62,492 bases of DNA, taken from Fulvivirga sp. GTDB taxonomy: Bacteria; Bacteroidota; Bacteroidia; Cytophagales; Cyclobacteriaceae. Positions 36,318 through 50,363 of the stretch are shown here, piece by piece. Made by a program: the position numbers and the translations under genes. How positions within the stretch are numbered: the first letter of the stretch is position 1; each line of letters begins with the position of its first letter. The notes under the pieces were generated by a model. That model had not been told where the DNA came from. It searched no databases and saw only the letters and a program-made list of their open reading frames with translations. Location: NCBI GenBank assembly GCA_028280565.1, contig JANQLQ010000335.1, forward strand, positions 1 to 62,492, written 5' to 3'.

Positions 36318-36490
36318 TAACCTGGACTCGATTAAAAAAGCGACCGTCATCCCGCGTCGGTGGTTGTGAGAGGGCTAATGGCGAGAGCCGGAATCTGCTG
36401 TGTCGTAGAACTGAAGCTACCACCCTTTTTAAAGACTGTGAAATTATTCAAACCTCATTTTAAGCCTAGGCCAGCATGATTTTAAATCGA
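36318..36490 (-). repeat. Family A dispersed repeat, copy 2
   Basis: This 173-bp element is the reverse complement of the copies at 18146-18306 and 47330-47502. It keeps TAACCTGGACTC, GAATCTGCTGTGTCGTAGAA and GATTTTAAATCGA. It begins 10 nt after the stop of the minus-strand gene at 36501. The plus-strand frame at 36230-36463 runs through this repeat and is not a gene. Confidence 0.85.
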
Positions 36491-46180: not shown

Positions 46181-47287
46181 ATGAAATACTACCTAGTAGC
46201 GGGGGAAAGGTCAGGCGATCTCCATGGCGGTAACCTCGTTAAAGCTATTAAAAAGTACGACCAAGACGCTCATTTTAGAGGGTTTGGGGGAGATACTATG
46301 GAAGCCCAGGGAATGGAGCTCGTGGCACATTACAGGGAATTAGCCTTTATGGGCTTTCTCGAAGTGTTAAAAAACTTAAAGACAATATCCCGCTACCTTA
46401 AAAAATGTAAAGCTGATATTGAGCATTCCAGGCCTGGCGTAGTGATCTTAATTGATTACGCCGGGTTTAACCTGAAGATTGCCAAGTTTTGTAAGGCAAA
46501 AGGTATCCGTGTTTTTTATTATATCTCTCCCAAGGTATGGGCTTGGAATACGCGTCGTGCCTATAAACTGAAGAGACTCGTTGACCGCATGTTTGTCATT
46601 TTACCTTTTGAAAAAGAGTTTTTTCAAAAATTTGATTGGGAGGTAGATTACGTAGGAAACCCGGTGCTAGATGCATTGAAGGAGCACCAGGTCAACCCAC
46701 TCCATTACCGGGATGACCTTACCGTAGCGCTTTTGCCTGGAAGCAGGGCCCAAGAGCTTGAAGGTACATTACCCATTTTTTGTGATCTTTTGAACCGGTT
46801 TCCCGAGTATCAATTTATCATAGCAGCGGTAGATAATGTGGATCGACAGCTCTACGAGAACATCGAAAGCAAGCCTAATGCTACACTCCTCTTTGGAAGC
46901 ACCTACGATTTGCTGGCCAATGCCCGGGCAGCGGTAGTTACCTCGGGCACCGCTACGCTGGAGACCGCTCTTTGGAAGGTTCCCCAGGTTGTGACTTACA
47001 AGATGAGTACGTGGACCTACAATATTGCAAAACGATTAGTAAAAGTTAAGTACATTTCATTGGTAAACCTCATTGCTAACAAAATGGTGGTGAAGGAGCT
47101 GATACAGGATGATTTTAACCTGGAGCAGCTAGCAGGGGAGCTTAGATCACTGATGGAAAATGAGGACTACCGCGCAGGGATCTTGGAGGAGTATAATTCA
47201 ATTTACGAGGTGTTGGATCAAGGCTCTGCCAGTGAAAATACAGCTCGTCTTATGGTGCAATACCTCGATGGCCCTTCGGCAGGATAA
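46181..47287 (+). CDS. lpxB: Lipid-A-disaccharide synthase
   Basis: The 368-residue length fits LpxB. The N-terminus YYLVAGERSGDLHGG is the family signature. KVWAWNTRRAYKLKR and the later LLPGSRAQELEGTLPIF, SGTATLETALWKVPQVVTYK and KYISLVNLIAN are conserved blocks of this GT19 enzyme. It joins UDP-2,3-diacylglucosamine to lipid X at the inner membrane, giving the tetraacyl disaccharide of lipid A. It is cotranscribed with queD and ends before a 1-kb repeat-rich region. Confidence 0.97.
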   Translation: MKYYLVAGERSGDLHGGNLVKAIKKYDQDAHFRGFGGDTMEAQGMELVAHYRELAFMGFLEVLKNLKTISRYLKKCKADIEHSRPGVVILIDYAGFNLKIAKFCKAKGIRVFYYISPKVWAWNTRRAYKLKRLVDRMFVILPFEKEFFQKFDWEVDYVGNPVLDALKEHQVNPLHYRDDLTVALLPGSRAQELEGTLPIFCDLLNRFPEYQFIIAAVDNVDRQLYENIESKPNATLLFGSTYDLLANARAAVVTSGTATLETALWKVPQVVTYKMSTWTYNIAKRLVKVKYISLVNLIANKMVVKELIQDDFNLEQLAGELRSLMENEDYRAGILEEYNSIYEVLDQGSASENTARLMVQYLDGPSAG

Positions 47288-47329
47288 AGAGCCTGCTGGT
47301 AAAGTGAAATTCACAAATGGTATAGACCT

Positions 47330-47502
47330 CGATTTAAAATCATGATAGCCCAGGCTTAACATGAGGTTTAACATAATTTCACAGGTTTTAAACTGGGCAG
47401 TAGCTTCCGTTTTACGACACAGCAGATTCCGACTCTCCCAACAAGCCCTTTCATAGCCACCGGCGCGGAATGACGGTCATTTTTTTAATTGAGTCCAGGT
47501 TA
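47330..47502 (+). repeat. Family A dispersed repeat, copy 3
   Basis: This 173-bp element, 42 nt after the lpxB stop, aligns with 18146-18306 and the reverse complement of 36318-36490. It carries GGCGCGGAATGACGGTCA and TTAATTGAGTCCAGGTTA. Relative to copy 1 it contains about 12 extra bases near 47360 (CTTAACATGAGGTTTAACAT), which copy 2 also has. Confidence 0.85.
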
Positions 47503-47569
47503 TAGGAGTCGGACTTGGACCCGAGGTTCTGCTTGACTTAGGGCGTCCCTGAAAATTAGCTCTTATACT

Positions 47570-47844
47570 GGTCGGAGGTTAAGCGTAGCGGTCCTCCGAC
47601 CTAAACCCCGGAAGAGCGTCCGCTCGATCTGTCTCGTTAATGACTTTTTTTCAAAACGATTGGGTCATTCTTCCAATAACGAGTCTGCCGTGAAAAACAG
47701 TTGGCCTGAAAATTTAAACGAGAGGATGGATTTGGAATTAATGTAGCAGCCTCCCTGCTTTTAAGTGTACGACCCGAGGCCATTTACGAGCGGACGCTCT
47801 CTCGATTACTAAAGTCGTAGGACCGCTACGCTTAACCTACGACT
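47570..47844. repeat. Element with long inverted ends containing covarying hairpins
   Basis: The left end hairpin is GGTCGGAGG (47570-47578), loop TTAAGCGTAGCGGT, CCTCCGACC (47593-47601). The right end hairpin is AGTCGTAGG (47813-47821), loop ACCGCTACGCTTAA, CCTACGACT (47836-47844). The loops are exact reverse complements, and the stems differ only by two compensatory pair changes. Inside these, GAGCGTCCGCTCG (47614-47626) and CGAGCGGACGCTC (47787-47799) form a second inverted pair. Together they give imperfect terminal inverted repeats of about 58 bp. There is no coding capacity; a non-autonomous mobile or REP/BIME-like element is the best guess. Confidence 0.75.
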
Positions 47845-48088
47845 AGGGTGGAGCGTCCGCTCGATCTGTCTCGTTAATGACTTTTTTTCAAAACGGATTG
47901 GGTCATTCTTCCAATAACGAGTCTACCGCGAAAAACAGTGGACATGAAAATTTAAACGGGAGGATTGATTTGGAATTAATGTAGCAGCCTCCCTGCTTTT
48001 AAGTGTACGATCCAAGGCCATTTACGAGCGGACGCTCTCTCGATTACTAAAGTCGTAGGACCGCTACGCTTAACCTACGACTAGGGTG
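47614..48088. repeat. Tandem duplication, two units of 237-238 bp
   Basis: Unit 1 is 47614-47850 and unit 2 is 47851-48088. Both start GAGCGTCCGCTCGATCTG and end in CCTACGACTAGGGTG. They differ by roughly ten substitutions and one single-base insertion (AAAACGATT versus AAAACGGATT). Each unit ends with its own hairpin (47813-47844 and 48051-48082). The left hairpin at 47570-47601 is present once only, so unit 2 looks like a partial duplication of the element described above. Confidence 0.9.
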
Positions 48089-48293
48089 GAAAAAAGAAAA
48101 GGGCGCCAGTAACCAAGCCCATTTTCCCTTCAAAACGCGCTGTCCAATCCTTACAGGCCGCTTGCCCACAGGCCTCAAATGGACCGCGCTGTTCCCGGAT
48201 GTCTCCCCTCTATACGCTTCCTGAATTTTCAATGATGCCCTATTTTACATATAAACTTTGCAAAACAGGATTAGTTTTCTGTCCAAGTATGGA

Positions 48294-50363
48294 TTATATT
48301 TTGATGCGAGTTTGAAACCTGATCACTGTCCTCTTACCTCCTTGTATTTCTTCTAGGCCTGACCCTACTACATCACGATCCCTGGCGCTGGTTCGGGCAT
48401 ATTTGAGCCAAAAATCCAGTTTTCGATTAGCGCGATATTGCAGGAGCAGGTACTGCCGGGTACCTCTACCGCTAAGGGCGGGAATGGAAAAGGCATAAAG
48501 TACATCACGCTCAAATATGTACTGCCGGTTATCAAAGTCATCGGTATCGAATAACGCTATTCGTCCGCTAAAGCGCCACTTGTTATAGCGAATATTGAGG
48601 TCTTGTGCTGCTGCAAAACCACTCGAATTGCTTTGACCTAGGCTAAAAGCACTCCATTGTATTCGTGATTTGAAAGATACCCTTTGGGATATTTCGTGAT
48701 CCAGGTTAAAAATGAAGTTATCTTTTATCCCTTCTGCCGGCGTTTTTATATGGTTTTCGTGGTCATCCACCTCCAAGTCTTCGTATTTTGATTGCCTTCT
48801 ATACTGGAAGAAAAACCGGCTGGTTTTATGCCAATTGTAGTTGAACCGAACCAAGTATTCATACCCCGTGGAAGGGGTACTGGCTGAAGATCGGAGCCAT
48901 CCAAAAGCAAAAGAATCGAAGTAACAAGAAAAACTGATCTTCCGGTTCACCACATATTTTAACCCCCAATAGTTTCCCTGCTCATTTATGTTCCGGCTTT
49001 GTTCCCCAAAACCGTCGTCGTAAAAGCTGTGAAAGTCTCGGTCGTAGTTTCTGAATACCAGCGCGGCCTCGAGCTTTCTGCCCAGGGCCGTTATCAATCC
49101 CGCTACGGCCCCGATCCCACCACTGGAAGACCGGGCAGCTTCACCAAAGAAGGTAAAGTTTTGAAAGTTATAATTCGTAAATAACCCGTAAGCTAGGTTA
49201 TGGCCCCCTGAAAATTCGAATTGATTGGCCAAGATGGGTCTGCGAAAGATAGGGAGGGAATAACGGGTATGCAGTGCGTGGGTGCCTGTGGTCCAGCTTC
49301 CTTTTTGAAATGTGAGGTTAAGTCCTATGTTTTCTTCGGTTAGGGTATTCCGGGCATTGATTTCGTTTTGTGTGCGGTGCAAGCCGGAGGTTTGTATCGA
49401 GGAAACATACTCACCACGCCGGGGATCATCGTCGGATCTTGGGATCCCATCCTGCTTGAGACGAGAATACATTGCTGTTATGTCCAAGTGTTTGTTTATC
49501 TCAATAGTGGCAGCGCCACCCCGGAAAAACCCGGTTTCTCTTACGGAGGTATAAGGCCTGGCCCCGAGGTTCGTTCTCCGCACCGTGGCGACACTTTCTG
49601 CGCCTTTCCCGATGTTAAATCCAGATCCAAACACTAAGCTTTGACCAAACTGCACCTGGTAGTCCCCTAAGACCAGGTTCTTGACCCTTCCCCGGTTTTG
49701 CAGTTGGAAGTGGTAGCTGTAAAAATCGGCACCATATCGGCGAGTTTCCCGATCCCAAGTAAAAGGTTCCCCTTCATCCTGCTCTATGGTCATGCCCAAA
49801 CTGAAATCTTTCGGATGACTTACCCTGAATCGAGCAAAGAATTTGCCTCGCACACCTGCATAACGGTTGTCAGAATCATTATCCGGGGGTGCAAATCCTT
49901 TCTTTTCCTCTAAGGTCCTCTCATATCGTAGCAGTACATAATTGTTCGGCTCAGACAGGATCTTTTTTATCAAAGATCGATTATCGGTACTTAAATGGGT
50001 CTCCCTCACCGTAACGAAAGGTAGCAATCGCTGGATGGTGGGAAGATCTAGGCCAGGGACGGCTTGTAATTCAAAGATAGAGAGTAGCTTGCCGTACGTT
50101 ACACGGTAGGAAAGCAAAGAGCTCACCTGGGCTTCTGTTAAGATAAACAGCGATCGAAGCTCTTCTCTGCTCGCCGTGTTGAGGTCGAGAGGGTGGCTGT
50201 AATGGAGCAAAAGTGCTTCGTAAAGTTCTTCATAGTTGGCATCTTGCTCTTGTAGTGGGAATACTTCTTCGATGATCCTTTCAATGTCCAGGTGGCGATC
50301 TTCTTGGCACAAAGCCGGTACACCGGCTACCAAAAAGCTAACAAAGAAAAATAGTATTCTCAT
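48294..50363 (-). CDS. Exported helix-hairpin-helix protein with predicted outer-membrane barrel
   Basis: The 689-residue protein has a Sec signal peptide (MRILFFFVSFLVAGVPALC). Near residues 55-115 it has two helix-hairpin-helix-like segments: DLNTASREELRSLFILTEAQVSSLLSYR and SIFELQAVPGLDLPTIQRLLPFV, like ComEA. The remaining ~550 residues alternate aromatic-rich beta strands ending with VIRFQTRIKI, consistent with an outer-membrane beta-barrel. HhH motifs normally bind DNA, so a periplasmic or barrel-linked DNA-contacting role (for example DNA uptake) is possible but unproven. Its start overlaps the upstream PorV-like gene by 4 nt. Confidence 0.82.
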   Translation of the reverse strand: MRILFFFVSFLVAGVPALCQEDRHLDIERIIEEVFPLQEQDANYEELYEALLLHYSHPLDLNTASREELRSLFILTEAQVSSLLSYRVTYGKLLSIFELQAVPGLDLPTIQRLLPFVTVRETHLSTDNRSLIKKILSEPNNYVLLRYERTLEEKKGFAPPDNDSDNRYAGVRGKFFARFRVSHPKDFSLGMTIEQDEGEPFTWDRETRRYGADFYSYHFQLQNRGRVKNLVLGDYQVQFGQSLVFGSGFNIGKGAESVATVRRTNLGARPYTSVRETGFFRGGAATIEINKHLDITAMYSRLKQDGIPRSDDDPRRGEYVSSIQTSGLHRTQNEINARNTLTEENIGLNLTFQKGSWTTGTHALHTRYSLPIFRRPILANQFEFSGGHNLAYGLFTNYNFQNFTFFGEAARSSSGGIGAVAGLITALGRKLEAALVFRNYDRDFHSFYDDGFGEQSRNINEQGNYWGLKYVVNRKISFSCYFDSFAFGWLRSSASTPSTGYEYLVRFNYNWHKTSRFFFQYRRQSKYEDLEVDDHENHIKTPAEGIKDNFIFNLDHEISQRVSFKSRIQWSAFSLGQSNSSGFAAAQDLNIRYNKWRFSGRIALFDTDDFDNRQYIFERDVLYAFSIPALSGRGTRQYLLLQYRANRKLDFWLKYARTSARDRDVVGSGLEEIQGGKRTVIRFQTRIKI

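Follow-up and report, generated by a model that had tools for sequence, protein, structure and literature searches.

The doublet units known as REPINs were named by Bertels and Rainey (PMC3116915), a study in which deep reads were also searched for excision products of Pseudomonas fluorescens REPINs, and E. coli TnpAREP has been found to process single-stranded REPs in vitro (PMC8266576). From the Bacteroidetes, the accessible text of Quentin et al. 2018 describes TnpAREP subclass 2.6, whose atypical flanking structures are without GT[AG]G and have further copies in the genome; the HUH motif of this subclass appears in the paper's table as NH[LIV]H (PMC6006769). Di Nocera et al. 2013, in the portion available, report RAYT-like genes lying between double-palindromic inverted repeats (PMC3733652). 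Work on REPINs and RAYTs has been carried out mainly in Proteobacteria; in the sources at hand the Bacteroidetes subclass takes up a few lines, its atypical structures having been found by manual inspection.

Here we describe an element from a window of 62,492 nucleotides (the whole stretch of DNA analysed) belonging to a Fulvivirga sp. genome of 9.05 Mb in 337 contigs. It is very probably a non-autonomous, RAYT-mobilised mobile unit of the REPIN/BIME type. The family is well defined and new; the kind, a RAYT-associated REPIN, is already known. The original prediction, made from the window alone, recognised no described family. That judgement stands for the exact sequence within the literature searched: no paper describing this family was found by a search that had most subscription papers and supplements outside its reach. 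It does not stand for the kind, which the accessible parts of three papers describe (PMC3116915, PMC3733652 and PMC6006769).

The window contains one complete REPIN-like unit (47564..47850, + strand), composed of two inverted two-hairpin ends and a core without recognised gene, together with a tandem second copy (47851..48088, +) that lacks the left outer hairpin. Read base by base, the sequence bears out the three hairpins originally proposed, each with a 9-bp stem and the same 14-nt loop, in the first hairpin in opposite orientation to the other two. The outer hairpin of the left end (H1; 47570..47601, −) consists of GGTCGGAGG (47570-47578), loop TTAAGCGTAGCGGT (47579-47592) and CCTCCGACC (47593-47601), and is supported by covariation as well as by its sequence; that of the right end (47813..47844, +) consists of AGTCGTAGG (47813-47821), loop ACCGCTACGCTTAA (47822-47835) and CCTACGACT (47836-47844); the third, 238 bp past the second, reads identically. 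The stems of the first and second hairpins differ twice and, as had been noted, both differences are paired: the outer pair is G-C in one and A-T in the other, and the fifth pair from the loop is G-C versus T-A.

Each end of the unit is ∼60 bp long and the two are inverted, with arms of 33 nt (91% identity) and 14 nt (100%), in agreement with the imperfect inverted ends first described. On the inner side of H1, 12–13 nt inward, lies a palindromic box, H2 (GAGCGTCCGCTC; 47614..47625, −), of the form GAGCG(TC)CGCTC, which is seen in the repeat arms and is kept in the end alignment A1 (which was restricted in advance to rows with a recognised box). The outer foot of H1 is CT[AG]G rather than the 5′ GT[AG]G of canonical REPs, and a canonical GTAG REP is ruled out by this foot. 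An end model, R1, built from 84 sequences that include the three window ends themselves, finds three ends in the window: the left (47566..47635, −; 80.5 bits, E 4.8e-19), the right (47778..47848, +; 76.3 bits, E 6.1e-18) and the right end of the second copy (48016..48086, +; E 6.1e-18); its other window matches are one overlapping and weaker (1.6e-4) and one at chance level (0.84). Between the boxes of the complete unit is a 161-bp core (47626..47786, +), which is common to units of this genome; among the sister-genome matches listed, the ends match and the core does not. Compared with dinucleotide shuffles the unit folds strongly (z −8.6 as DNA of the + strand, −8.4 as RNA of the − strand). 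A further pairing that had been proposed inside each unit, CTCGTTA with TAACGAG, is absent from the consensus fold of 15 units; by eye, both halves as written occur in the window copy and at locus L002 only.

The partial tandem duplication of 237–238 bp that had been proposed is evident from two direct repeats, one of 208 nt at a distance of 238 bp and one of 45 nt at 237 bp. At the junction, as read from the sequence, the two parents have only GA in common, which suggests that the second copy arose by slippage or microhomology.

A DNA search of this genome with the element returned 91 matches, in many cases the two strands of a single site, and R1 returned at least 143 (from 150 scored of 2249 first-look candidates), so that the further copies by which the original prediction could be checked are plentiful. 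An 18-nt loop pattern allowing up to two mismatches matched 89 times, versus 0 for a reversed control. Once overlapping double calls are removed from the R1 matches listed, 139 ends remain. Neighbouring ends spanning less than 450 bp form 41 pairs among these matches, of which 33 point outward (−+), four are −−, two +− and two ++. The outward pairs account for 66 of the 139 ends, the remainder being single or otherwise placed; they span 180–428 bp, with 14 of the 33 at 281–287 bp, and the paired end matches of the window unit (47566-47848, 283 bp) fall inside this peak. The commonest arrangement is thus two inverted copies of the ∼60-bp end. Aligned with 14 other units, all chosen as full-length or nearly so, the window unit belongs to a set with a mean column identity of 80%. 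Just one of 58 hairpins lies inside an open reading frame of at least 150 aa, although such frames make up 69% of the 20 stretches used. The family therefore has the make-up of a REPIN, being a short palindromic repeat present in many, mostly extragenic copies and arranged as inverted doublets of characteristic spacing that are able to fold together. Over the genus as a whole, end matches number some 355 and are present in 12 of the 15 genomes.

In one of these genomes, G007, ends also occur in same-orientation arrays 0.7–1.9 kb apart. At two loci there (L125 and L126) family ends alternate with small genes near C-terminal parts of Rhs-core proteins (TIGR03696, E ∼1e-9 in both), where, as a guess, they might serve as recombination points.

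The original prediction also held that the stem is maintained by compensatory change. Selecting copies by the loop alone gave 122 places, 84 of which pair at seven or eight of eight positions, and 103 distinct copies; the selection includes chance loop matches (35 pair at five positions or fewer), and where a pair is conserved these alone increase the excess over shuffles. Pairs 5 and 9 are the most informative, each having two common pair types. Pair 5 is formed in 80 of the 103 distinct copies (36 G-C, 33 T-A), where 500 shuffles give 55 at most; pair 9 is formed in 77 (53 G-C, 16 A-T), where they give at most 64. At both positions the proposed covariation is found across copies. Pairs 1–4 and 6 are likewise above all shuffles in this set; pairs 7 and 8 lie within the shuffle range (75 versus a maximum of 81, and 77 versus 80), and pair 10, beyond the stem, is formed in only 13 copies. 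In alignment A1, 96.3% of cells pair and 56 cells are double-changed, versus 16.3 in shuffles, a result that leans towards structure since the hits were preselected for pairing at six or more of the eight stem positions. A1 derives from 163 hits, less 45 without a recognised box and less near-duplicates, leaving 86 rows of which 84 were aligned (L044:10622-10691 and L126:4048-4117 were left out). Of 92 hairpins, five have a loop inverted with respect to the box (L007 1518, L008 1723, L043 7641, L046 6842 and L059 1350), 62 have it in the usual direction, and in 25 the box was not recognised by the script.

A Y1/RAYT gene with matching ends, whose existence elsewhere had been suggested, is present in the same genome. 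The genome has six Y1_Tnp matches, and a RAYT gene, at locus L064, lies on contig C49, a different contig from that of the window. Its open frame is 190 aa long (184 from the first ATG) and scores 110.8 bits (4.9e-32) with the NCBIfam model REP_Tyr_transpos (NF047646; cut-off 80), which identifies it as a RAYT; against the IS200 model it scores 32.4 bits, below the cut-off of 55. Its sole PDB match at E ≤ 0.01 is the TnpAREP structure 4er8 (E 5e-4), and it carries the motifs SHVH (HUH), LWQQ and YIHNNP. The gene sits between two inverted ends of the window's type that point outward: its flanks form a 34-nt perfect inverted repeat consisting of the H1 hairpin and foot, and the left 75 nt of the window unit, corresponding to the 5′ side of the RAYT gene, are 80% identical to its 5′ flank. 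The loop of these flanks, ATCGCTTCGCTAAA, differs from the window loop ACCGCTACGCTTAA, and mobilisation of the window subfamily by the L064 RAYT is for this reason putative. RAYT genes with both intact frames and ends are present in this genome and in G013.

No R1 ends were found near the other RAYT genes of this genome (L063, the broken L065, and L066, searched as L167), and no repeats of their own were identified in the flanks of these three. L061 and L062, which are IS200-like or closest to IS200, were covered by a looser listing of loop patterns. Nor do the units carry traces of a transposase: tblastn over 18 unit sequences gave no significant match to a RAYT remnant (best E 0.047), and a six-frame profile search of unit cores for such a remnant returned nothing.

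The relationship between ends and RAYTs can be followed across the genus. We counted ends around all 112 RAYT matches in the 15 genomes, leaving out two ends in G013 C138 and, in some genomes, ends too distant to matter; by contig and position, none of the ends left out is close to a RAYT match. In 17 of 17 matches that are at least 61% identical to L064 an outward end lies no more than 400 bp away, on both sides in eight; the 17 are matches rather than genes, some representing parts of a single gene or old remnants and one being a composite in G006. Below 61% identity the corresponding figures are seven of 95 and none. Among matches of at least 450 nt the division is six of six (five on both sides) versus one of 46. 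An R1 search of 32 loci (30 of the 112 matches, plus L063 and L065) found ends at all eight loci at or above 61%; of the other 24, L174 alone had ends, and weak ones (E 2e-4 to 6e-3). Apart from the genus search, 39 RAYT loci of relatives were searched, and end matches were found at L067–L071 only; those flanking L071 score weakly (3e-5 and 2e-4), and of the three at L069 one is strong and the others are weak. In a phylogenetic tree L067–L071 and the labelled genus rows form one group of 13 rows with support of 95/87, representing 10 distinct genes, three of the rows being repeats of genes in the genus set. The type of end goes with the RAYT clade.

Two exceptions deserve mention. In G000 a long match of 47% identity (C194:6661-7544, L060) has, on one side, an outward end at a distance of 351 bp, and in G013 a match of 54% identity (C46:46105-46650, L205) has an end 5 bp away in inward orientation. 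In addition, G004, G006, G007, G011 and G014 each carry 8–32 end matches, with best full RAYT matches only 43–58% identical; at those RAYTs of these five genomes that were searched, no ends of this family were found.

G006 has a 31-residue RAYT piece at 61% identity. This fragment (residues 42–72; L130 2863-2955) lies near a hairpin end, and the other end of the composite is a CAAGC-type palindrome. We considered it as proof that the window unit arose by deletion and rejected it, the composite's other end being of another type.

Inverted arms were also compared at 35 or 36 RAYT loci, some of which are without convincing arms. At other Bacteroidota RAYTs the best arms, judged by eye, frequently include palindromes of the CTGGCGC or AAGCGTCC(C)GCTTG type (L073–L076 and L079 among others), with CTGGCGC also seen at L077 and L102. 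These palindromes resemble H2 and share the same CTGG foot, which suggests that H2 would be the older part of the end and H1 an addition in this RAYT clade; L071 carries both hairpins.

The element lies between two convergent genes, lpxB (46181-47287; Pfam LpxB match) and a gene at 48294-50363 (−). Fulvivirga sp. M361 (L185) has 27 bp between the aligned ends of the two proteins and G003 (L204) has 14 bp, compared with about 1030 bp in the present genome; the argument for an empty site thus consists of two genomes, which do not resolve the junction. lpxB adjoins this neighbour in two of six relatives, and in the stretches examined of the other four (G009, G010, G011 and G012) the neighbour was not found beside it. 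Most of the extra DNA is made up of the REPIN dimer together with two dispersed repeats that are unrelated to it and form no part of the unit. Repeat A (47328..47504, +) has 43 matches in this genome, a figure that counts the query and two short pieces; it is ∼177 bp long, occurs a second time in the window (36318-36490), and its other copies are 82–92% identical. No inverted repeat of 10 nt or more was found in the region containing it (47288-47563). Repeat B (48092..48247, +), ∼155 bp long, has at least 40 matches, query included (40 scored of 425 candidates), and many of the copies listed lie near contig starts. By eye, a TTTTCTTT..-AAAGAAAA palindrome stands just upstream of repeat B in five of nine aligned copies, and REPIN right ends are found near repeat B in the window, C219 and C319.

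Several other explanations deserve consideration. If the element were a MITE, with terminal inverted repeats recognised by the DDE transposase that moves it, one would likewise see imperfect inverted ends of ∼60 bp, dispersed copies and no recognised gene inside; yet the gene that these ends enclose is a RAYT, repeatedly and by clade, and the ends are internally palindromic, so that a MITE is very unlikely indeed. The element might instead be a structured non-coding RNA or 3′-UTR element whose fold is selected as RNA, a reading that is compatible with a REPIN acting in mRNA and that would accommodate the strong fold, the covarying stem and the position between convergent genes. However, the same covariation is to be expected of DNA that folds as a substrate, conservation does not extend to the core stem, the distribution of the ends follows a transposase clade, and the window has no Rfam match at the gathering score; we consider selection as RNA very unlikely. 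Of the possibilities raised in the original prediction, then, the REP/BIME-like element served by a Y1/RAYT elsewhere has gained support, from L064 and from the clade link, and the structured RNA, with no Rfam match at that score, has not. One more candidate was an integron attC site: the loop contains a GCTTAAC/GTTAAGC string that resembles attC core sites, and G007 has the same-orientation arrays of ends. We rejected attC sites on the grounds that most complete G007 units show, by eye, a shorter inverted left end and that the ends frame RAYT genes.

The copies could also be relics that were spread by recombination or duplication and are no longer moved by a RAYT, which is partly compatible with a RAYT origin. 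This is how one might read the 2-nt overlap at the tandem junction, the end-bearing genomes where the search found no complete RAYT of the matching clade, the flipped loops within stems and the cores devoid of transposase. It is nonetheless an improbable account of the family, given that discrete doublets of similar length occur in different flanks and that intact RAYT genes with ends exist in this genome and G013.

Returning to the RAYT-mobilised REPIN, a RAYT (TnpAREP, HUH/Y1) gene is found between the same two inverted ends both here and in relatives, and by analogy we infer that the units are moved by the RAYT. If the E. coli TnpAREP is a guide, the enzyme would recognise the folded single-stranded ends and cut them at their feet; it would then copy or move the DNA that they enclose, acting in cis on its own gene and in trans on the gene-less 283-bp units. 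In the window a unit would have landed between the convergent lpxB and 48294-50363 (−) and, after landing, have been partly duplicated in tandem.

A more elaborate joint reading can be offered tentatively, as a possibility that is rather doubtful when taken whole. It envisages a RAYT clade with a composite two-hairpin site: the inner palindrome would be inherited from a common Bacteroidota RAYT end (of the CAAGCGTCC-GCTTG type), and the added outer hairpin would bring the 14-nt loop and a CT[AG]G guide in place of GT[AG]G. Foot and stems would then be read differently from those of the TnpAREPs studied, and the 161-bp core would have a function of its own.

Whatever the fate of these proposals, the anatomy of the end, the length of the unit, the matching RAYT clade and the occurrence of the ends across one genus are now laid out, and an otherwise blank non-coding repeat has a name. 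The RAYT and its ends also provide a candidate enzyme/substrate pair for asking how site recognition works in a RAYT that has no GT[AG]G guide.

By motifs and by flank organisation the family resembles the ‘atypical’ TnpAREP subclass 2.6 as this is set out in the available text: both are from Bacteroidota, both have WQ and YIH[QN]NP motifs, and in both the flanks lack GT[AG]G and have copies elsewhere in the genome. The HUH motif differs at one residue, being SHVH in L064 and NH[LIV]H in the subclass (PMC6006769). As in the TIRtrons/TIRYT, to go by their published description alone, a RAYT-like gene is bordered by long inverted repeats other than GTAG REPs, some ends are doubly palindromic, and the dispersed repeat families occur in dimers (PMC3733652). 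With the REPINs/BIMEs and RAYT/TnpAREP of Pseudomonas fluorescens and E. coli, as portrayed in the accessible portions of the respective papers, the family shares the inverted hairpin doublet, the mostly extragenic location, tandem clusters, compensatory changes and a RAYT gene framed by the same repeats (PMC3116915 and PMC8266576); unlike them, so far as these sources go, it has a CT[AG]G foot, two hairpins per end, and a unit of ∼283 bp built around a 161-bp core.
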